From assembly GCA_025454395.1 (NCBI GenBank), contig JALOOM010000025.1, positions 1 to 64,000 on the forward strand: DNA of 64,000 nucleotides. The letters are read 5' to 3'. The position numbers were made by a program, and so were the translations under genes. The notes beneath the pieces are model-generated. The model had not been told where the DNA came from, searched no databases, and was given only the letters and a program-made list of their open reading frames with translations. Within the stretch, counting starts at the first letter, position 1. Each line of letters starts with the position of its first letter. Shown here piece by piece: positions 7,177 to 63,732 of this stretch. The stretch is from Elainella sp. Prado103 (GTDB lineage: Bacteria > Cyanobacteriota > Cyanobacteriia > Elainellales > Elainellaceae).

Positions 7177-7278
7177 GGGTCAATCTGAGGCAGATGGAGG
7201 ACTGTTATCTCTATCTTAAGCCGTTCAGTTCTCATTCTGAGAAGAACCGCTAGAGGAGAACTGCTGACCATAGACGAC

Positions 7279-7369
7279 TTAGACAAGTTACTCAGGCAAG
7301 TTACTTAGACAAGTTACTTAGACAAGTTACTTAGACAAGTTACTTAGACAAGTTACTTAGACAAGCGAC
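7279..7369. repeat. 13-bp tandem repeat, 7 units
   Basis: Seven head-to-tail copies of TTAGACAAGTTAC, five of them identical or nearly so. The stop codon of the minus-strand gene at 7357-7824 is formed inside the last unit, so the repeat begins at the end of that gene and fills the gap towards dus. Confidence 0.95.
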
Positions 7370-20570: not shown

Positions 20571-20682
20571 AGCGATGTGCAACGAGGCGGAGCAGGGTGA
20601 AGGCTGGCTGAACGATGCAGATGAATTATCCAAGGGCGAAAAATGCAGGAATTGCCGCATCTTGCGAGCATTCCAGTCTTTT

Positions 20683-20733
20683 TATTGATAATCCGTGATT
20701 ATTGATAATCCGTGATTATTGATAATCCGTGAC
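20683..20733. repeat. 17-bp tandem repeat, 3 units
   Basis: Three near-perfect copies of TATTGATAATCCGTGAT. The stop codon of the minus-strand SpoIID-like gene lies at the junction of units two and three, so the last codons of that gene are repeat-derived. Confidence 0.95.
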
Positions 20734-32296: not shown

Positions 32297-32913
32297 CTGG
32301 CATTCTCCTTGCGGGCTGAACTCGCCTACACATCAGGCACACCAGACCGAGGGCAACTGTAAGCTCGATCGACCGAGGGGATCTCGTGGGCTCGCGATCG
32401 AGCAATCATCAAGTGTTCTGATGTTGCGCTGCTTTTTCAGAGCCAATTCAGGCACTGCATTTTCAATCGTAACTCCGAATCCTACCCTTCCTGTCCCCCG
32501 GTTCCAGTAATTATTATGAGATCCAAGTATCGAGTTTATCCACTGATCACGGAGAACACCCCGGTTTGAATCGATGAATCCACCAGAATTCAGTTTTGCA
32601 GGTTTTCTTTTAAAGACTAAGATTTGAATTAAGCGCTATTGGGTCGATCGGCTGGATCGGGGGATGGACATAGATGACTCATCAAGTGCTACTTGGGGAG
32701 TGCCGATCGCTCTTTTTGGCTATTTGCTGCCGAGTCACTTTGCTGCCGAGTCACTTTGCTGCCAGGTCACTTTGCTGCCAGGTCACTTTGCCGCCAAGTC
32801 ACTGGCTCAGGTGCCTTAAGACTGCCACGCTCCCATCACGCAGGTAATGTCCGGACAAGACAACCCGAGCGGAACTGATTGATCGATATTATTGCCGTAG
32901 TGCGTTATCTGCC
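32297..32913. promoter_or_regulatory. 617-bp divergent region between pixI and the WD40 kinase
   Basis: It must contain divergent promoters for the phototaxis operon and the kinase. A 9-bp inverted repeat with a 23-nt loop (32363-32403) is near pixI. A 16-bp tandem repeat fills 32723-32802. I see no -35/-10 pair good enough to call and no RNA gene. Confidence 0.4.
32723..32802. repeat. 16-bp tandem repeat, 5 units
   Basis: Five copies of TTTGCTGCCGAGTCAC drifting to TTTGCTGCCAGGTCAC and TTTGCCGCCAAGTCAC. Located about 110 bp before the WD40 kinase start. Confidence 0.95.
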
Positions 32914-51052: not shown

Positions 51053-51372
51053 ATTTTAATGACATTTTAATAAATCATTGTTAATACTTCATGATTAACA
51101 ACCGATAACGACCGTAATCCTGAATTGGATTTGAACGAACTCAGCATTTTGCGGCAATTGCAACTTTTGCAAATCTTGTGGCAACTCAACTCTGAAGCAA
51201 CTCAACTCTGAAGCAACTCAACTCTGAAGCAACTCAAGTCTGAAGCAACTCAACTAAAAAGTAATAAGATTAAGCGGTTCAACGCTGGATGCTCAAACAT
51301 TCACCCGCACCCGCACCCGCCGGAAATTCTAGTTGGATGAAGTCAGTTGGATGAAGATAGAAGTGAATCAAG
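51053..51372. promoter_or_regulatory. 320-bp divergent gap upstream of lpxD1
   Basis: Carries the 16-bp tandem repeat at 51181-51256, a short CCCGCA triplet repeat near 51304 and a doubled AGTTGGATGAAG at 51331-51355. No clear promoter hexamers; AT-rich at 51053-51090. Confidence 0.4.
51181..51256. repeat. 16-bp tandem repeat, 4.7 units
   Basis: Units of GCAACTCAACTCTGAA, the first three identical, the fourth GCAACTCAAGTCTGAA, then a partial unit. Confidence 0.95.
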
Positions 51373-52488
51373 ATGAAGTTTAGCCAGTTGATCCAGTCTC
51401 TTAGCAGCGATCAGGCTGAGTTAGTTCAGACCTCAAGCTTGATCGAGCACCCTGCTTGCGATCCTGACCTGACCAGCCTAGCCGCGATCGAGGAAGCTCA
51501 GGCGGGTAGTCTCAGCTACATTGAGGGCAGTAAGTTTGCCCGTGCCGTGCAAATCACCCAGGCAAGCGCCGTCATTTTGCCAATGCAAGCGAGTTTGCAA
51601 CAAATGGCCACCGATCGCCACATTGCCTGGATCGCCTCCTCGGAACCAAAACTCTTGTTCGCCTATGCGGTTCGGTTATTTTACCAACCCTTGCCCCTGG
51701 AACCCGGAATTCATCCGACAGCCGTGATCGATCCAACGGTGGAACTGGCAGAAGATGTGGCGATCGGAGCCTACGCAGTGATCCGGGCGGGTGTGAAGCT
51801 GGGCAGGGGTGTCACCATACATCCGCAAGTGGTGATCTACCCAGAGGTCAACATTGGCGATCGAACGACTCTCCATGCGGGCTGCATCATCCATGAACGC
51901 ACCCAAATCGGTAGAGATTGCGTGATCCACAGTGGAGCAGTAATTGGGGCGGAAGGATTTGGCTTCGTCCCCTCTGCCAAGGGTTGGGTGAAATTGGAAC
52001 AGTCGGGCGTGACCGTGTTAGAAGATCAGGTAGAGGTAGGCTGCAATGCCACGATCGATCGCCCTGCGGTGGGAGAAACACGGATCGGCTACAACTCTAA
52101 GTTGGATAACCTGGTGCATGTCGGACACAATTGCCAGATCAGTCCCAATTGCATTTTGGCGGCACAGGTCGGCATGGCCGGGGGCAGCAAAACAGGGCAG
52201 TGGGTGATTTTAGGCGGGCAGGTAGGGGTCGCCAACCAAACTGACATTGGGGACAAGGTGCAGGCAGGAGCGAAAGCCGGACTCCATGGCACGATCGCCC
52301 CTGGCAGCATTATGATGGGCAATCCGGCCAGCCCCTACAAAACCTTCCTGAAAGCCTCCGCTATTTACAATCGCTTACCTGCCATGCACCAAACCTTGCG
52401 GCAACTCCAACAACAGGTCGAGTTCTTACAGCAGCAAATCCAGGAATTACAAGACCAGGCGAATTCTCATGAGAGCCGGTCTGATTGA
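51373..52488 (+). CDS. lpxD: UDP-3-O-acylglucosamine N-acyltransferase LpxD, copy 1
   Basis: A 371-residue left-handed beta-helix acyltransferase of lipid A synthesis that adds the N-linked acyl chain. The N-terminal uridine-binding domain ([20 protein letters not shown]) precedes hexapeptide repeats from about residue 110 ([20 protein letters not shown]) and the catalytic His in [34 protein letters not shown] is a family mark. The C-terminal helix is longer than in copy 2 (QQQVEFLQQQIQELQDQ). A second lpxD follows at once on the same strand, so this is a tandem paralogue pair. Confidence 0.94.
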   Translation: MKFSQLIQSLSSDQAELVQTSSLIEHPACDPDLTSLAAIEEAQAGSLSYIEGSKFARAVQITQASAVILPMQASLQQMATDRHIAWIASSEPKLLFAYAVRLFYQPLPLEPGIHPTAVIDPTVELAEDVAIGAYAVIRAGVKLGRGVTIHPQVVIYPEVNIGDRTTLHAGCIIHERTQIGRDCVIHSGAVIGAEGFGFVPSAKGWVKLEQSGVTVLEDQVEVGCNATIDRPAVGETRIGYNSKLDNLVHVGHNCQISPNCILAAQVGMAGGSKTGQWVILGGQVGVANQTDIGDKVQAGAKAGLHGTIAPGSIMMGNPASPYKTFLKASAIYNRLPAMHQTLRQLQQQVEFLQQQIQELQDQANSHESRSD

Positions 52489-52645: not shown

Positions 52646-53680
52646 TTGAAACTGAGCCAACTCATCCAAACCCTAGGGATCACAGAATTTCATCTCGCTG
52701 ACGATCCAGACATTACAGGAGCCAGCCCGATCGAAGCACCCCAGCCCCAAACCATCAGCTACATTGAGGGCAGCAAGTTTGCTAGCCACATCAACAGCAC
52801 CACCGCCAGTGCATTGATCTTGCCCAACGATCCCACCCTACAACAACAGGCCACCGATCGCCAATTAGCCTGGCTGGCCGATCCTCAACCCCGGAAAGTC
52901 TTCGCTCAGGTGATTGCGCTGTTTTATCAGCCGTTTCGCCTGCCGATCGGCATTCATCCCACAGCCGTGATCGATCCCAGCGTGGTCTTGGGTCAAGCGG
53001 TGGCGATTGGAGCCCATGTCGTGATCCAGGCAGGCGTGAAAATTGGCAACGAGGTTTCCATCCATCCCAATGTGGTGATTTATCCAGACACTCAGATTGG
53101 CGATCGAACCATCATTCATGCCAATGCCACCATCCATGAACGCACCCAGATCGGAGCCGATTGCCTGATTCAGAGTGGAGCTGTGATTGGGGCAGAAGGG
53201 TTCGGCTTTGTGCCAACGCCAGAAGGCTGGCTGAAAATGGAACAATCTGGGCAGGTTCTCATTGAAGATCAGGTAGAAATTGGCTGTAACTCAACCATCG
53301 ATCGCCCGGCCTTAGGCAATACCCGCATCGGACACTCCACCAAAATTGATAACCTGGTACATATTGGGCATGGCTGCCAAATTGGTGCAGGCTGTATTCT
53401 GGCTGGACAAGTGGGGCTAGCCGGGGCAGTTCAAGTGGGCAAGCGGGTGATTATGGCAGGGCAAGTCGGCATTGTGGATCATGTCAAAATTGGGGACAAT
53501 GCCATTGCTTCTGCTAAGGCCGGCGTGCATAGCGATGTAGAAGCGGGGGCGATCGTCACCGGAGTACCTGCTATTCCCCATAAGCTGTTTGTTAAAGCCA
53601 CTGCGGTGTTTAACCGGCTACCCGAAATGTATCAATCTCTGCGTCAGATTCAAAAACAAATGGGCGTGGAGCGCAAGTGA
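52646..53680 (+). CDS. lpxD: UDP-3-O-acylglucosamine N-acyltransferase LpxD, copy 2
   Basis: A 344-residue paralogue of the gene just upstream, with the same architecture: [20 protein letters not shown] in the uridine domain, hexapeptide repeats from [35 protein letters not shown] and catalytic His in [13 protein letters not shown]. The start is TTG ([10 protein letters not shown]), which aligns with MKFSQLIQSL of copy 1. Both copies keep the key residues, so both may be active, perhaps with different acyl-chain length or N- versus O-site preference; that is inference. Its last 31 bp overlap the SUMF1-domain gene on the other strand. Confidence 0.93.
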
Positions 53681-54660: not shown

Positions 54661-57600
54661 TCATGCCAACATCACTTGAGTAAAATCTAGAAGAACATCA
54701 AACCGAAAATCATGGATCAGCATAGATAATAATTTGGCGAAATCCTCTGATTCAGGAGGAAGTTGTTGAATCAACTGATAACAGTTCCCTTGATCAAGAC
54801 TGGATATCGCTTCATAAAACTGCTGCCGCCAAGCCAAAGAGGTGGTCTTGAAACCCGAGATCAGCGCTGACGATAGCCCCAGATCCAATGATTGTGCCAA
54901 ACTCGCTGCGTTGAGCGGGCTGTCAAGCGAACTGTCAAGTGAACTGCTGAGTGAACTACTGGGTAAACTTTTGGATGAACTATCGAGTGAACTTTTGAGC
55001 GAGCTAATACAATTGGCGTGACTGAGTTGAATCGTTTGACGGGTTAGGTTTGCGTGACAGGTTAGGTTTATTTGACCCGATTGATTCGTCTGGCTCCTTT
55101 GCTCCGTCTGGCTGAGATAATTGCTTGGATTTGTCGGGTTGGTTAGGCTAGTTTGCCAGGTTTGAGTCAGTGGATTCGGCAGATCTATTCCTGGTTCTGC
55201 CCCAAATTCATCCTGCACGGCTTGCACAGGCAGGCAAACTTGAAACTGCGATCCTTGTCCCAGTTGGCTCTTGACGGAGATCTTACCTCCCATGAGTTCC
55301 ACAAGCCGTTGGCTGATGGATAGCCCCAACCCAGCTCCGGACGGAAAACTTTGATTGTGTTCTGCTTGCACAAACGGTTGAAAAATACGATCGAGATCAA
55401 CAGGTGCAATTCCCACCCCTGTATCCTGAACCGTGACAATCAACCAAATTGGCTGTTCATGCCGCCACCGATTAGGTAGGTCGGGCGATTCATCTCGGCT
55501 GCGAATGAATGCTGGCGATCGAGAGGTTGACGGGTGAGCTGCTAGTATCCTGGATTCAGGTGAGTTCAATTCCGACCGGCTCGATTCGGTTTTTATAGAT
55601 GCGGTTTTTATAGATGCGGTTTTTACTTGTAAATTAACTTTCCCCTGTTCAGTAAACTTGATCGCATTAGTGAGCAGATTTAATAACACCTGGCGTAACT
55701 TCACAGCATCAGTCATAATTTTGCGGGGGATCGGATCATCCATCACCACACATAGATCAATCCCCTTCAAGCTAGCCCCCAACTGCACCATTTGGCTTAC
55801 ATCCTGCAGAAGATCTATCAAGACGATCTCAACTGTCTGCAAAGTCATTTGAGATGCATCTGATCGGGCAATATCTAATACATTATTGAGTACCTCCAGC
55901 AAATGTTCACCACTACGCAATATTGGGTATATTTGGTCTCTTTGTTCAAATGTTAGTTTTTGATCGCTCAACAACAATTGACTAAATCCCAAAATGGCAT
56001 TGAGAGGAGTACGCAATTCATGACTCATGTTAGCCAAGAACAATCCCTTAGCCCGATCGGCCGCCTCAGCCGCTTCTCGGGCTTGCTGTAATTCTGTCAC
56101 ATCCCAACCAACTGCCTGAAACTCAATCAGTTGAGCTGTTTCATCAAAAATCGCTAGATTCACCCATTGTTGCCACAGAATCCGACCGTCTGTTTTTTCC
56201 ACTAAATGGGTTTGAGTGAGTAAGGGCTGTTGGGGGGTGAGGGTCTTCAGCTCCTCTAACAACTGCACAACATGGGAACGCCCAGCCACTGGCACGAGCT
56301 CCAAAAAATTCATCCCCAGCAATTCAGTATCCAATCGCTCGAAATATCGGCAATAGGCTGGATTAACCAAGGTTAGGGTGCCATCTGGCAGAAAGCGGCA
56401 AATCAGTTCGGTTTGGGTTTCCACCACCATGCGATAGCGTTCTTCACTTTGCTGAAGCGCCTGATTGACGCGATCGAAGGTCTGATTGAGCTGATCTGCC
56501 ATTTGATTAAAGGCTTGGCCCATGGCTTGCAATTCAACGATCGGCAGATTGGTAGGCAATCGGGCTTCAAACTGGCCCGCTGCCAAGGCAGAACTCACCT
56601 GTTGTAATCGCAAAATTGGTCGCACCAACCAATCGGAAACTGCTAGGCTCATCACCAACCCCACACTGGCAACCCCGGCACAGAGCCAGAGCGTCAGCCG
56701 ATTATTGAGATGAATTTGAGCTGTAAAATTCTCCTCTGGCACCAAGGTCACGATCAGCCAATCTAAACCGTGCGGGTCTTGCCAAGGAATCACTTGCAAA
56801 AACTGCGGCACTCCCTGAATTTGCACTCGTTGCTGTTGTCGGTGTTGGATCTGCGCTAGGGCTGGAAATTGCTGCAAAGTTTGAGCCGTTTCTCGAATCA
56901 GCGGATCGGAGCTATGGAGTGCTAGCTCCGGAGCCAGGGAAGACTGGGCACAGTAATCTGGTATTTCCCGCGAGGAAGCAATCAAATGCCCCGATCGATC
57001 GAGAATGAGGCTTTCTCGTCGATTGCTGAGCGGCAAATCCGCAGGCAGTTGCCGCAGGAAGTGATGAATATCATTGAGTCGTACTTGGGCCGCCATCACA
57101 GCCTGTAAGGGAGGCGGCTGATCGGGGAACTGATCGGGGGGCGACTCACCATATAGTGGATAAACTGCTGCCATGCCTAACTCACAGCGATCGTTCCGAT
57201 AGATTGGACTCCAAGTTGAACCCTGAGCCTGCCGTGCCGCTGTATACCAGGGCAATTGCTGCACATCTTCCTGGAGTTGATCAATGCTCACCTCAGCCCC
57301 CAGCGGTTCTTGGCTACTGATCCCATCGCGATGTGGCCGATCGATCAACCCAATCTCCTCCACCTGCAAGTTTCGGTTAACGGCAAGGGAGTACTGGTTA
57401 GTTTGCCCCTGTTCTAGAATGACTATCTGACCCTGTTCTGTTGCAACCATCACTGAAGTCACCGCTGGGAACACACGGATCTGTTGCAAGAAATCTCGTC
57501 CTACAGTCAAGGGGTGATTAATTGGGAAATGGCCATCCTGCCAGCGCAATCCATTCAGTTGATTGACTTGATGGGGTGCCTCCAGGAAGGTTTGGAGTTG

Positions 57601-57798
57601 CAGTACAATTCGATCGCCCACCTCTGCTTGCAGGTGACTGACTAAAGCCTGTGTATTATTGTGTCCATTGCGCCAAGAGAAGTAGCCGGTTAGCCCTACC
57701 ACCGTTAAAACGGGAACGACACCTAGCGCAGTAATCATCAGCCGTAAAGAAATTCGATCCGATCGGTGCAGCAGATAGCGAAAGCAAGACCCTATCAT
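54661..57798 (-). CDS. Large sensor histidine kinase (Cache-HAMP-PAS-HisKA-HATPase) with repeat-built tail
   Basis: A 1045-residue membrane kinase. Order: TM1 (about 20-42), periplasmic Cache-like sensor (43-370), TM2 (about 378-396), HAMP (397-450), PAS (455-575), HisKA with phospho-His in [20 protein letters not shown], and HATPase with N box [14 protein letters not shown]1 VQDTGVGI and G2 [18 protein letters not shown]. Between HisKA and the G boxes is a short repeat insert ([13 protein letters not shown]). After about 850 comes a 100-residue low-complexity tail of Thr/Asn- then Ser/Leu-rich repeats ([14 protein letters not shown]), then a helical end ([31 protein letters not shown]) of the sort found behind receiver domains in cyanobacterial hybrid kinases. 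No receiver is present. Signal unknown. Confidence 0.9.
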
Positions 57799-57882: not shown

Positions 57883-58007
57883 CATCACAGCCAAACTCAT
57901 CACAGCCAAACTCATCACAATCAGACTTCATCACAACCAGACTTCATCACAACCAGACTTCATCACAATCAGATTTCATCACAACCAGACTTCATCACAG
58001 TTAAACT
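57883..58007. repeat. 15/16-bp tandem repeat, 8 units, in a 389-bp gap
   Basis: Eight units starting CATCACA: 15-bp CATCACAGCCAAACT (twice), then 16-bp CATCACAATCAGACTT / CATCACAACCAGACTT (five), then CATCACAGTTAAACT. The rest of the gap 57799-58187 shows no gene. Confidence 0.95.
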
Positions 58008-58493: not shown

Positions 58494-58614
58494 GATCCAC
58501 CAACATCCGGCATAATTTTGATTACCCTTGAAAAGATGGGCGTTAATTGCAACTGCTGCCTGGCTGAGCCGGATCGCCTGCTCTCCACCATGTATGAGAC
58601 AGAGGAAGACTGGG

Positions 58615-61551
58615 ATGAAACCAAAATTCAATGATTGGGTAGGTTGGTCAAAGCATCTAGCAATTTCGTTGCTCGTGCTACCCGTCAGCGTCACCTCCGT
58701 GTCAATGGTTTCAGCCAATGTGGCCAACCCACCGCTCCAGCGATCGACCTTGACACTCGCCCAAGTACCAGCTTCGAGTCTTACCCCGGCTTCGACGGAT
58801 CCGGCCATTCAACAGCGACTGGATGCTCTCGATCGCACGACTACTCTTTTCAATGTCATGCTGGGCACACTTGTCGTGATTGCGGGTGGCTCTCTCGTCG
58901 CTCTGTATCTGCTGCGGCGATCAGTCATTCGAGAAGTGGCAGCGATCGTCAACACGCACTTGAAAGAAATTGGTGATCTGGAAACCCAGATTAGTGGGGC
59001 TAAACAAGAAATCAAACGCCTCTTGCGTAACTATGAAGATTACGCGGCTGATTTAGGAGAAGAGGCGGATGGGTTTCAGCAAGATCTAGCCTCTAAACAG
59101 GATGGGTTGGCTCGGTTGGTCTCGGAAGCCGCGCAACGTCAGCAAGACAGCCTGCGAGCCTTAGAAGAGCAACTGCAAACAACGCAACAACGATTAGGGC
59201 AACTCGAGTCTGAGGCGATCGTGCGACTGACCAATTTACAAGGATCTGTGCAACACCGACGCGATGAGGTCGTGCAGGCGATCGAGCAGAATCAACATCA
59301 GTTTGCCGGTCAATTAACTGCGATCGAAGCCGATACTCGACAGCATAAGGAAACGGCCATTCAACGCTTAGTCGATCTGCAAGCTGATTTTGGCTCCTAT
59401 CTCAGTGATTTGCGGCAAACCGTTTCTACGACCGTCGCCCAACAACGGGATCAAACCCTAGAACGGTTGCGATCGATCGAGGCAGACTGTATTGCCAATC
59501 TGAACCAGCTCCAAACCGATGCCGCCCACCACCGCAACGAGCTCTACGCCAACCTGGAAAAATTCCGACTGGAACTGACCGCTCAATTGTCCCAACTGCA
59601 AGGTGATATTTTGGCTCAGCGCGACACAATCCGCCAAACGCTAGAGCATCTTTCAACCGAGTTAGTGGCCCAGCGTTCTAACGCCCAAGTTGAAATTCAG
59701 GCACAAAAGGAGCTGGTTCGTCAGGATATTGCCCAGTTGCGCACCGACTTTGCAGCCCAACGGGGAGAACTGCAAGCGGATGTACAGGCCCGCCAAGCTG
59801 AACTGCAACGCATTCTTCACCAATCGGAAGCGGAGTTTAGTGCTCGCTTGACCCAACTGCAAGCCGATATGCAAACCCAGCGGCAGGCGATCCGCCAAAA
59901 CCTGGAGCGGCTAGATGCCGAATTTGCAGCCCAACAGTCTGAGCTTCAAATGGCAGCTCAAACCAAGCAAATTGAACTACGGCAACTGCTCGATCAACTG
60001 CAAACCGAGGTGATCACTCAACAGGCGAATTTACAATCGATCGCTGCCAGCAAACAGGTGGAACTCCAGCAAACCTTGCAGCAAATTGAAGCCGAGTTCG
60101 TCAGCCAGCGATCGGACTTGCAGGTGGAATCCCAAACCCAAAAAGAAGCCCTGCGGCAGTTGGTGGAACAACTTCAAACCGAAGTTGCAGACCAGCTCAG
60201 CCAGTTGCAGACCAGTAGCCAGGAAAGTCGGAGCTTGATGCTGCAAAACTTGCAAAAAGCCGAAGCCGATTTGATCAACCAGCTCTCAACCCTCAAACAG
60301 GATGTGCAGATGCAGCGCGATCGAATGCGGCAAAATCTGGAAAAATTGGAAGGGCGTTATGTGGCTCAGTTGGGTGAACTGCAAACCAGTACCGAAGGGC
60401 AGAAAGAACAAACGCTCCTGAAACTTCAGCAAACCGAAGCCGACTTGATCAACCAGCTCACGACCCTGCAAGCCGAAGCCGAAGCCGAAAAAGCCACGAT
60501 TTTGCAAAAGATGGGTGAGATTACGCCCCAGTATCTAGCCGATGCATTTGTAACGGAAACGCAGCAACAGCTGACCTATCTGAATGAGCAGATCGATCGG
60601 CTGAAGTCCAGTCAGCCGGAGCTATTTTATCTACCTCAAGACTACATCCAACGGGGCGAGACCCTATTGACCGAGGGGAACTACGAAGCCGCGATCGAGC
60701 AGTATGACAAGGCTCTAGCCGCTTACGCCAACAATGCGCCAGAAACGGCTGAGATTTGGATGAAACGCGGTCGGGCTCTGGAAGACATGAAACGGTTAGA
60801 AGGGGCGCTCTCAGCATACGATCGGGCTGCTAAACTGCAACCTCAAAACCCACTAGCCTGGTATCATCAAGGCATCGTGTTAATGGAACTACGGCAATAT
60901 GATGCGGCGATTGCGCTCTTCGATCGAGCCGTAGAACTCCAGCCCCAAGACTATAAAACCTGGCTGAATCGCGGCATTACCCTCAGCCGCACCAAGCAAT
61001 ATGATCAGGCTCTTGATTCCTTTGATCGCGCCTTACAAATTAAACCGGATTACTCAGAAGCCTTTGTGAATCGGGGTGTTGTACTCGGCACCTTACAACG
61101 ATCGGAGGAAGCTCTAGCCGCCTTTGATCAAGCCACTCAAGTTGATCCAGAAAACCCGACGGCCTGGCTCAATCGCGGCTTAGCACTCTTGTCCTTAGAA
61201 CGTTATCCCGATGCCGTTGCAGCCCTCGATCGGGTCACCGAACTCAAACCAGACTCCCATAAAGCCTGGGATAGTCGTGGCTATGCGCTGCTGCAACTCA
61301 ACCGCGATCGAGAAGCCTTGGCGAGTTTCAACCGATCCATCAAGATCAAACCCGACTTTGCCACCGCTTATTACAATCGGGCCATTTGCTATACCCAGCA
61401 AGGAGAACCCGACTCCGCCTTACAAAATCTGCAAAAGGCGATCGATCTTAACCCGAAATATCGCAAAGAAGTTAAAACCGATCCCAACTTTGAGGCTTTG
61501 AGGGGCAACGATTGGTTCCAAGATCTGACGACATCAGGAAGTTCTGCGTAG
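58615..61551 (+). CDS. Membrane-anchored protein with 29-residue coiled-coil repeats and eight TPRs
   Basis: The ORF track starts at a TTG (58528); ATG at 58615 has GAGGAAG 7 nt upstream and gives MKPKFNDWVGWSKHLAISLL, a signal-peptide-like start. The product is 978 residues. Order: signal or first membrane segment (about 13-35), a second membrane segment (LFNVMLGTLVVIAGGSLVALYLL, about 78-100), a charged helix, then fifteen consecutive repeats (59227-60543) of 29 residues each except one of 33, pattern LxxLQxxxxxxKxxLRQxLxxLxxEFxAQ, a continuous rod; then eight TPR units (for example AWYHQGIVLMELRQYDAAIALFDRAVELQP). It looks like a scaffold holding a TPR docking head about 60 nm from the membrane. 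No known homologue recognised; function unknown. Confidence 0.88.
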   Translation: MKPKFNDWVGWSKHLAISLLVLPVSVTSVSMVSANVANPPLQRSTLTLAQVPASSLTPASTDPAIQQRLDALDRTTTLFNVMLGTLVVIAGGSLVALYLLRRSVIREVAAIVNTHLKEIGDLETQISGAKQEIKRLLRNYEDYAADLGEEADGFQQDLASKQDGLARLVSEAAQRQQDSLRALEEQLQTTQQRLGQLESEAIVRLTNLQGSVQHRRDEVVQAIEQNQHQFAGQLTAIEADTRQHKETAIQRLVDLQADFGSYLSDLRQTVSTTVAQQRDQTLERLRSIEADCIANLNQLQTDAAHHRNELYANLEKFRLELTAQLSQLQGDILAQRDTIRQTLEHLSTELVAQRSNAQVEIQAQKELVRQDIAQLRTDFAAQRGELQADVQARQAELQRILHQSEAEFSARLTQLQADMQTQRQAIRQNLERLDAEFAAQQSELQMAAQTKQIELRQLLDQLQTEVITQQANLQSIAASKQVELQQTLQQIEAEFVSQRSDLQVESQTQKEALRQLVEQLQTEVADQLSQLQTSSQESRSLMLQNLQKAEADLINQLSTLKQDVQMQRDRMRQNLEKLEGRYVAQLGELQTSTEGQKEQTLLKLQQTEADLINQLTTLQAEAEAEKATILQKMGEITPQYLADAFVTETQQQLTYLNEQIDRLKSSQPELFYLPQDYIQRGETLLTEGNYEAAIEQYDKALAAYANNAPETAEIWMKRGRALEDMKRLEGALSAYDRAAKLQPQNPLAWYHQGIVLMELRQYDAAIALFDRAVELQPQDYKTWLNRGITLSRTKQYDQALDSFDRALQIKPDYSEAFVNRGVVLGTLQRSEEALAAFDQATQVDPENPTAWLNRGLALLSLERYPDAVAALDRVTELKPDSHKAWDSRGYALLQLNRDREALASFNRSIKIKPDFATAYYNRAICYTQQGEPDSALQNLQKAIDLNPKYRKEVKTDPNFEALRGNDWFQDLTTSGSSA

Positions 61552-62069: not shown

Positions 62070-62954
62070 TTAGATTTCAGCCACTGCCCGTTCGATCAGC
62101 CGTCGAGCCAGGGTTTGTAAACCTGTATGACGGTAGTATTTCACCGATACATCCAGAAACGCACCTAGGTAGTCCATTTTGTCGCTGGTAATTTCCACAA
62201 ACTTGGATAAGTTATTGACCAGACCAGCCTGTGTAATACCCCGATCGGTCACAAAACCTTCCATCCAGCCTTTGGTCGATTCAAAACTCTCTGTAATGAA
62301 AGCGAGTTTACCGGCATCATTGCCACCTGGAATTAAATCTTCTACCCCCTTGAAAGTTTGATTATGGCTCAACTCAGATGGGCTCATTCCCTTCACCAAG
62401 CTCAGCGCCTTATCGGCAAAGGTCGCTCCTAACGGAATAATGCCATCAAAGCTAACCAGGGCAGCCATTCGCATCAGAGACTCGCCACTATAGTCCTTCA
62501 GGGCGGACAGGAAGTCACCGATGCTGTCACCAGGAATGCCATTAATTTGGCAGAAAGCTACCAGTTCTGTCACTAACTTCACTGATAAGTCAATGCTCTG
62601 GGCCCGTTCGGGCTTAGGAGTCAGGTTTTTCAAGAAGCCCAAAAAGGTATCTTGGCCAATCCGGTTGGCGATCGCCGCCGCACCCAGCAGTCCGGAGGCG
62701 GAATCCACCGTTTCGTAAAGCCAGAGCGCTCGCTGATAGCCCTGAGATTTATCGTTAAACAGTGCTACTGCCCGTTCACCAATCTGCTGAATCAAGGCCT
62801 CATCCGTCTCGCCAGTGACAGCACGGATCGTATTATCAAAACCAACCAGATTATTCCACTGTCCAGGGACAACAAAATCTAAGGATTTGAGTGCAGCAAC
62901 GGTCAAACCCCCTTTGGGTAGATCATCCACCAGTTCATAAATCGGTTTACTCAC
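62070..62954 (-). CDS. Unknown, mostly helical soluble protein
   Basis: 294 residues with no signal or membrane segment. It begins MSKPIYELVDDLPKGGLTVAAL and is built of helices through the end (LQTLARRLIERAVAEI). Segments such as ALFNDKSQGYQRALWLYETVDSAS and LIPGGNDAGKLAFITESFEST are well patterned. A GGAGCC-type ribosome site precedes the ATG. I do not recognise the family. The lipoprotein gene ends 37 bp upstream on the same strand, so the two are probably one transcript. Confidence 0.7.
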   Translation of the reverse strand: MSKPIYELVDDLPKGGLTVAALKSLDFVVPGQWNNLVGFDNTIRAVTGETDEALIQQIGERAVALFNDKSQGYQRALWLYETVDSASGLLGAAAIANRIGQDTFLGFLKNLTPKPERAQSIDLSVKLVTELVAFCQINGIPGDSIGDFLSALKDYSGESLMRMAALVSFDGIIPLGATFADKALSLVKGMSPSELSHNQTFKGVEDLIPGGNDAGKLAFITESFESTKGWMEGFVTDRGITQAGLVNNLSKFVEITSDKMDYLGAFLDVSVKYYRHTGLQTLARRLIERAVAEI

Positions 62955-62991: not shown

Positions 62992-63600
62992 TCAGGTTGC
63001 AGGCTGAGGTACCAGGACAGGCGGCCGGGCAGGGGCAGGTTTGGGCTGAGGAGCCGGTGAAACTGCTTTTGCCGTTGCTGCATCTAATCCTTTCAGTTTG
63101 GCTAGTCCACGCAAATCAAATTTTTGGAGCCACGCTTCTCGATCTTCCTGAGTAAATTCTGGATCGCGTGACAGCACTTTGACCTGATAGCGACCATTCA
63201 CCAATAACCCCGTTGCCGTTGTGCCCTGGTTGATCGCCGGAAAGCCTGCTATTTTTTCGGTACTATTTTGATACTTCACAGCGGCAGTGGGTAAGCTGCT
63301 CGTATCGCTAATCGATAACATCGCGACCGTCTTACCATCTTTATTGAGCTTATATTCAGCAAACCCTTTCTTCTCCTGAGCAGGAACCACATCATAAGTA
63401 CCAGTCGGATCGGGGAAGAACTTATTAAACGTTGCGCCTTGTTCAGCCGTTTTGACAACTGCTGCTGGGGCATTGCGGCCGGTCGTCTCCTTCTGCACAT
63501 CTGCATAGCGAGAAGTAGTTTTGGGAGCACAGGCAGTCAAAAACAGGAGCAAGCTAAGGAAAAGAGGGGCAAACACCCTCAGCCAGCGAGCGGGAATCAT
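62992..63600 (-). CDS. Lipoprotein of unknown function
   Basis: ATG at 63600 (MIPARWLRVFAPLFLSLLLF) is preferred to the ORF-track start at 63621 since it opens a clean lipoprotein signal; the lipobox is LTAC with the lipid-modified Cys at residue 24, and a GGAGATACCC ribosome site lies just before it. The 202-residue product has a beta-rich middle (TFNKFFPDPTGTYDVVPAQEKKGFAEYKLNKDGK, YQVKVLSRDPEFTQEDREAWLQKF) and a Pro-rich tail. It resembles cyanobacterial lipoproteins of no known function. It probably sits in the thylakoid or cytoplasmic membrane facing the lumen or periplasm. Confidence 0.8.
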   Translation of the reverse strand: MIPARWLRVFAPLFLSLLLFLTACAPKTTSRYADVQKETTGRNAPAAVVKTAEQGATFNKFFPDPTGTYDVVPAQEKKGFAEYKLNKDGKTVAMLSISDTSSLPTAAVKYQNSTEKIAGFPAINQGTTATGLLVNGRYQVKVLSRDPEFTQEDREAWLQKFDLRGLAKLKGLDAATAKAVSPAPQPKPAPARPPVLVPQPAT

Positions 63601-63732
63601 GGGTATCTCCTGAAAATGCATCGGAACATTTGGATCTTATCGAAAGAAGTAATTCGATTGATGTGTTCGCAAAATAAAGCAAATATTGGGGAACGGATAT
63701 ATTCTCCTCCAATTTCAGTAAGTTGATAATCC

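Follow-up and report, generated by a model that had tools for sequence, protein, structure and literature searches.

A cyanobacterial membrane protein with a putative coiled-coil rod of 29-residue units that changes length mostly in phase-keeping steps

INTRODUCTION

A gene of Elainella sp. Prado103, found within a 64,000-nucleotide stretch of contig JALOOM010000025.1 (the whole of which was analysed and is hereafter called the window), encodes a 978-residue protein in which a long array of 29-residue units lies between a membrane segment and a tetratricopeptide repeat (TPR) domain. The locus raises the question of what evolution preserves in such an array: its length, the geometry set by its period, or neither, the period being simply inherited by duplication. 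A first-pass annotation of the same DNA had proposed that the period itself is under selection and that the rod behaves as a ruler.

The 29-residue coiled-coil period is in itself already known. SF-assemblin is built of consecutive 29-residue coiled-coil motifs, made of four heptads and a skip residue (PMC8435291; PMC6070942). Bacterial rods mixing heptads and hendecads are known as well, namely FilP and Scy of Streptomyces, which show little supercoil, have a cytoskeletal or scaffold role and carry an N-terminal DivIVA-like motif (PMC9858780).

RESULTS

Gene start and domain layout

Based on the open reading frame list and on the starts of the orthologues, the whole coding sequence was placed at 58615..61551 (+). 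The mechanically listed start, a TTG at 58528, is probably not the start. We have preferred the ATG at 58615 because AGAGGAAG lies just 5' of it and because the corresponding position is where most orthologues begin (MKR...).

From the N to the C terminus, the protein comprises a signal-like segment, a transmembrane (TM) helix, a juxtamembrane helix, the rod and eight TPRs. Two segments, residues 15-33 and 81-99, stood out as hydrophobic in the hydropathy scan. The first resembles a signal peptide (58657..58713, +; mean hydropathy 2.01) and in the orthologue N-termini is often followed by an A-x-A-Q motif; we infer that this segment is cleaved. The second belongs to a TM helix of about residues 77-102 (58843..58920, +), which gives the hydropathy maximum of the protein (2.2) and ends in LLRR. 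Around the end of this helix L100, R101, V104 and E107 are invariant across 20 orthologues, in which R102 is near-invariant. The juxtamembrane helix that follows (58912..59064, +) begins LLRRSVIREV in the window, reads LRR(S/A)V(I)REVtaIV..HLkElgDLE.QI..AK.E...LL..YE.YA..LG in the orthologue alignment and has the highest conservation outside the TPRs.

At the other end of the rod, a junction helix (60526..60630, +; SPQFIADSF... in orthologues) ends in (Q/R)PxLF just N-terminal of the TPRs, and P638, F645, P668 and F671 of this region are invariant among orthologues. The C-terminal domain (60631..61464, +) contains eight TPR_1 stretches and an end-of-group helix (Pfam TPR_1, 1.6e-61). Its 34-residue helix-turn-helix repeats scored above the TPR cut-off, NF047558 also matched above its cut-off, and the fold matches consensus TPR structures. 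Hydropathy and the TPR_1 matches thus recovered both the N-terminal anchor and the eight TPRs of the first-pass annotation. Matches to ThiD2, DUF948 and SMC were weak and local, and we have taken them as composition effects.

The 29-residue array

Segmentation with a unit profile, iterated over 23 proteins, together with autocorrelation and Fourier analysis, delimited a rod of 18 units of 29 residues at 58969..60543 (+), with one unit of 33 residues and one junction of 28. The 15 consecutive units reported earlier (59227..60543, +; fourteen of 29 residues and one of 33, 439 residues in all) coincided exactly with our segmentation, but the count was low, as the iterated profile added three further units upstream. 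The 33-residue unit (29 + 4, a stutter) was located from the unit spacing lists as the third of the 15 (59401..59499, +) and stands at the matching place in nearly all segmented orthologues. In orthologues it is often preceded by a proline, whereas the window copy is not; among the 18 rods of the window's length class, 11 have a proline at offset 120. The only proline of the window rod lies at its extreme end.

Whole-rod BLOSUM62 self-similarity was highest at lag 29 (mean 0.92), followed by lags 58, 87, 145 and 116, and stood far above 500 shuffled controls, in which no lag scored above -0.007. The Fourier spectrum of the hydrophobic residues gave a sharp peak at 3.625 residues, which equals 29/8. 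In the unit profile, the hydrophobic positions 1, 4, 8, 15, 19, 22 and 26 are separated by steps of 3-4 / (7)-4 / 3-4-4 and a polar turn occurs at Q11-K/R12. Both the steps and the Fourier peak agreed with the earlier description of the unit as 7+11+11 residues making eight turns of 3.625. At this number of residues per turn, the seven positions fall between 25 and 99 degrees; the stripe that they share is therefore straight and narrow, being about 75 degrees wide. Core positions are 85% hydrophobic (alanine included) versus 20% elsewhere, and LIVMFYW account for only 26% of rod residues.

No DNA tandem repeat was detectable within the rod units of the window gene, so the units have drifted. 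Since the protein period persists in this gene, we have rejected the explanation that it is a DNA-repeat artefact. A search of the same genome for rod paralogues found none at E 0.01.

Predicted structure

AlphaFold2, supplied with 20 orthologues and modelling a single chain, produced one unbroken helix over residues 69-633, then the junction helix and then a TPR superhelix. The pLDDT was above 90 over most of the superhelix and 50-70 in the rod, where the low values may reflect missing partner chains. The model of the Planktothrix orthologue, of low confidence, contained helices 66-361 and 363-518. These models agree with the earlier expectation that the rod is continuous and not divided into separate helices, and the unbroken helix and the periodic stripe are consistent with a coiled coil. 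A Foldseek search returned relatives of the TPR domain only.

An undistorted helix has 3.63 residues per turn (PMC9858780). Because the sequence period is 3.625, the rod is predicted to be nearly straight and to have almost no supercoil. The first-pass annotation had likewise called it nearly straight, but its further description as weakly right-handed does not hold at a period so close to the undistorted value.

Orthologues and their conservation

When genome contigs were searched, the lone protein gave no matches and an alignment query retrieved orthologues. The rod was present in 23 of the 40 nearest genomes, and the gene in 151 of 390 Cyanobacteriia genomes (60 of 160 genera), the majority of the sampled genomes of this class therefore lacking it. 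Named carriers are Elainella, Moorena, Symploca, Planktothrix, Mastigocoleus, Xenococcus, Hyella, Lyngbya, Petrachloros and a Thermosynechococcus MAG. Signal-like segment, TM helix, rod and TPRs followed one another in the same order throughout the Cyanobacteriia orthologues. Unit length, whose variation had been named beforehand as evidence against a selected period, did not vary: in all complete orthologues analysed, self-similarity was strongest at lag 29 or 58 and the period was 3.62-3.63.

Mean identity was 61% in the TPRs, 58% in the TM and juxtamembrane helices and 42% in the rod. The TPR domain, which exceeds the rod in conservation, is the likely partner-binding end. In a 20-sequence alignment, the N-terminal tail carried 8.05 indels per 100 residues, compared with 0.28 for the rod and 0.40 for the TPRs.

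Evolution of rod length

Rod length was taken as the distance between a juxtamembrane profile and a profile of the rod-TPR junction in 92 non-redundant complete proteins, a measure in which linkers can move an anchor by one or two residues. Orthologues whose tail profile matched only in part (f32 and f16 g84), and whose end anchor was thus unreliable, were left out of the length statistics; four of them, inspected by eye, had the same architecture. The anchor distance was 500 in the window protein and in most members of its family, and spanned 353 to 703 residues overall. Across the class, this spoke against a fixed-length ruler, as rods between the same anchors extend from about 350 to 700 residues, even though most of the window's family keeps a constant 500.

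The lengths 355, 384, 413, 442, 471, 500, 529, 674 and 703 are congruent modulo 29. Among the 26 distinct lengths other than 500, 8 were congruent to 500 modulo 29, with about 0.9 expected (p about 2e-6), and none of the other moduli from 20 to 40 gave an excess of congruent lengths. The anchors and the TPR domain were used to build a tree, on which the root state is arbitrary and the length changes are not fully independent; parsimony required 37 length changes there, 15 of them exact multiples of 29 (p about 5e-13). Sixteen of the remaining 22 fell within {4, 7, 11, 18, 22, 25} (p about 4e-7), integers that lie close to a multiple of 3.625; this phase-keeping set comes from coiled-coil theory but was applied after the first lengths had been seen.

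The rods of Symplocastrum (L083:3653-5400) and Moorena (L077:6368-7035) contain 174-bp tandem DNA copies, corresponding to 58 residues or two units. These copies are evidence of recent unit gain and show the route by which units are gained. Computationally, the rod is thus shown to evolve through gain and loss of whole units and through other phase-keeping steps. That length changes are multiples of 29 or keep the phase argues that the period is constrained across the family, in line with the selection on the period proposed earlier. The argument made for it at that time, conservation of unit length in spite of sequence drift, is insufficient on its own, and the phase-keeping length changes are the stronger evidence. 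Relatives gain and lose whole units yet seldom break the rhythm, which suggests selection on the geometry of a stiff tether and not on its length.

Comparison with known systems

By sequence, SF-assemblin and beta-giardin of algae and protists (PF06705) have the same 29-residue units and the same mean period of 3.625 as the window rod. SF-assemblin is, however, a eukaryotic protein with a rod of about 240 residues and a non-helical head, has neither TM helix nor TPRs and forms 2-nm filaments, whereas the window protein has both a TM helix and TPRs and a rod of more than 500 residues. The latter did not reach the PF06705 gathering score (25.0 vs 30.6 bits; 28.2 bits for the first 673 residues alone). 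Like FilP and Scy, the window rod mixes heptad and hendecad spacings in its unit profile. FilP and Scy are not known to have a TM helix or TPRs, and the Pfam scan found no DivIVA match in the window protein. We have therefore filed the protein under neither group, given the SF-assemblin score and layout and the absence of the DivIVA motif.

The exchangeable apolipoprotein model PF01442 gave 16.3 bits against a cut-off of 90. These apolipoproteins have 11/22-residue helices punctuated by prolines, unlike the window rod with its 29-residue period and single proline. A PDB search with the window rod alone returned no significant match.

Golgins are membrane-anchored long coiled-coil tethers of eukaryotes that have a capture site at the far end and bind vesicles and small GTPases; with them we draw a functional analogy only and claim no homology. 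The ZorA tail of the Zorya system is another long helical rod on a membrane protein. Its profile match was weak, not significant (E 0.025) and confined to the coil and, unlike ZorA, the window protein has no MotA-like part in the Pfam scan.

Nearest by organism and theme, not by architecture, are the coiled-coil-rich proteins of cyanobacteria and the TPR protein All4981 of Anabaena, which are thought to be cytoskeletal (PMC7002697). All4981 has about 650 residues, and the coils predicted in it correspond to its TPRs; in the passages of that study covered here, none of the nine cyanobacterial candidates, the largest of about 650 residues, is described as having a TM helix, a 29-residue rod and TPRs.

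Genomic context

No neighbour conserved across the whole rod-gene family was found and, for this reason, gene neighbourhood was dropped as a clue to function or partner. About ten genomes, nearly all of a single family, f13 (L145, L146, L147, L148, L155, L158, L172, L177, L178 and L198), have a pentapeptide-repeat gene on the strand of the rod gene and upstream of it, in nearly every case immediately so. Beyond it, many of these genomes have a SagB/ThcOx-like oxidoreductase gene on the other strand. Neither gene was found near the window gene.

Short tandem arrays with units of 11-18 bp are numerous across the window (1-64000), and several are intergenic (for example 7277-7365, 20682-20732, 32723-32803 and 51181-51255). 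A 16-bp tandem repeat (CATCACAACCAGACTT) occurs in about 7 copies at 57883-57999, just upstream of a divergently transcribed histidine kinase gene (54661-57798, -). Two LpxD-like hexapeptide acyltransferase genes are adjacent on the same strand (51373-52488 and 52646-53680), and so are two genes without Pfam match (62070-62954 and 62992-63621, -), the product of 62992-63621 beginning with a lipoprotein-like signal (LLFLTACAP).

DISCUSSION

With moderate confidence, we lean towards reading the protein as a cytoplasmic, membrane-anchored coiled-coil tether or scaffold. The N-terminal tail would be exported and cleaved, and the rod and TPRs would lie in the cytoplasm, an orientation taken only from the positive-inside rule and the conserved RR after the TM helix. 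Along the straight hydrophobic stripe, identical chains are predicted to pair and form a parallel, nearly unsupercoiled coiled coil of about 75-85 nm (565 helical residues, each adding about 0.15 nm); packing in register is favoured because the stripe is so regular. At the far end, the TPR superhelix would bind a partner, either holding it off the membrane or linking it to the membrane. The selected feature would be the continuous straight stripe that keeps the chains in register, and the rod length would shift between lineages mostly by 29-residue steps.

We consider it unlikely that the protein is instead a filament-forming cytoskeletal protein, in which the rods would join side by side or by their ends into fibres like those of intermediate filaments or SF-assemblin, below the membrane and with the TM helix as attachment point. 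SF-assemblin, itself a filament former, shares the 29-residue repeat, and the Pfam model for it hits each of the 20 members scanned (best 7e-11), although long coils match many coil models and the window protein itself stays below the cut-off. One study reports that cyanobacterial coiled-coil-rich proteins and All4981 form filaments, but also that the N-terminal TM domain of Syc2039 was counted by its authors against genuine filament formation (PMC7002697). The variation in rod length across lineages and the lack of the gene in most sampled genomes also argue against filaments.

Rather less probable is a role in signal relay or chaperone docking for which only the TPRs and juxtamembrane parts matter; the rod would then be a passive stalk, its period handed down by duplication and its geometry under no selection. 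Such a role would fit the lower conservation of the rod relative to the TPRs and the juxtamembrane helix, as well as the visible gain of units through DNA duplication, but duplication alone leaves unexplained the 16 of 22 non-unit changes that keep the phase and the rarity of other indels. A lipid-binding amphipathic helix like those of exchangeable apolipoproteins, lying on the membrane or on a lipid body and not projecting, seems improbable: the apolipoprotein A1/A4/E model matches 20 of 20 members scanned and the best PDB profile matches are apolipoproteins A-I and A-IV (E 1e-10), but the strongly hydrophobic positions lie on a narrow stripe and LIVMFYW are few in the rod as a whole, the window rod is not punctuated by prolines as apolipoprotein repeats are, and its period of 3.625 differs from the 11/3 = 3.67 of 11/22-residue repeats.

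Returning to the membrane-anchored tether or scaffold, we found no description of a membrane-rod-TPR family in the open-access literature, subscription journals being mostly outside the coverage, and the family seems undescribed. A more tentative possibility is that it represents a widespread class of cyanobacterial tethers, in which the rod changes by exact 29-residue steps of about 4.3 nm while the straight, unsupercoiled geometry is kept. Such a modular spacer might perhaps set the gap between the membrane and a partner structure, for instance a second membrane or the machinery of division or cell shape.

The occurrence of the same rod with differing numbers of units across lineages amounts to a natural experiment, in which evolution keeps the helical phase and not the length. 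If the tether reading is true, an adjustable-length, membrane-bound spacer would be added to the toolkit of cyanobacterial cell architecture, and protein design could draw on the family as a natural series of straight rods.
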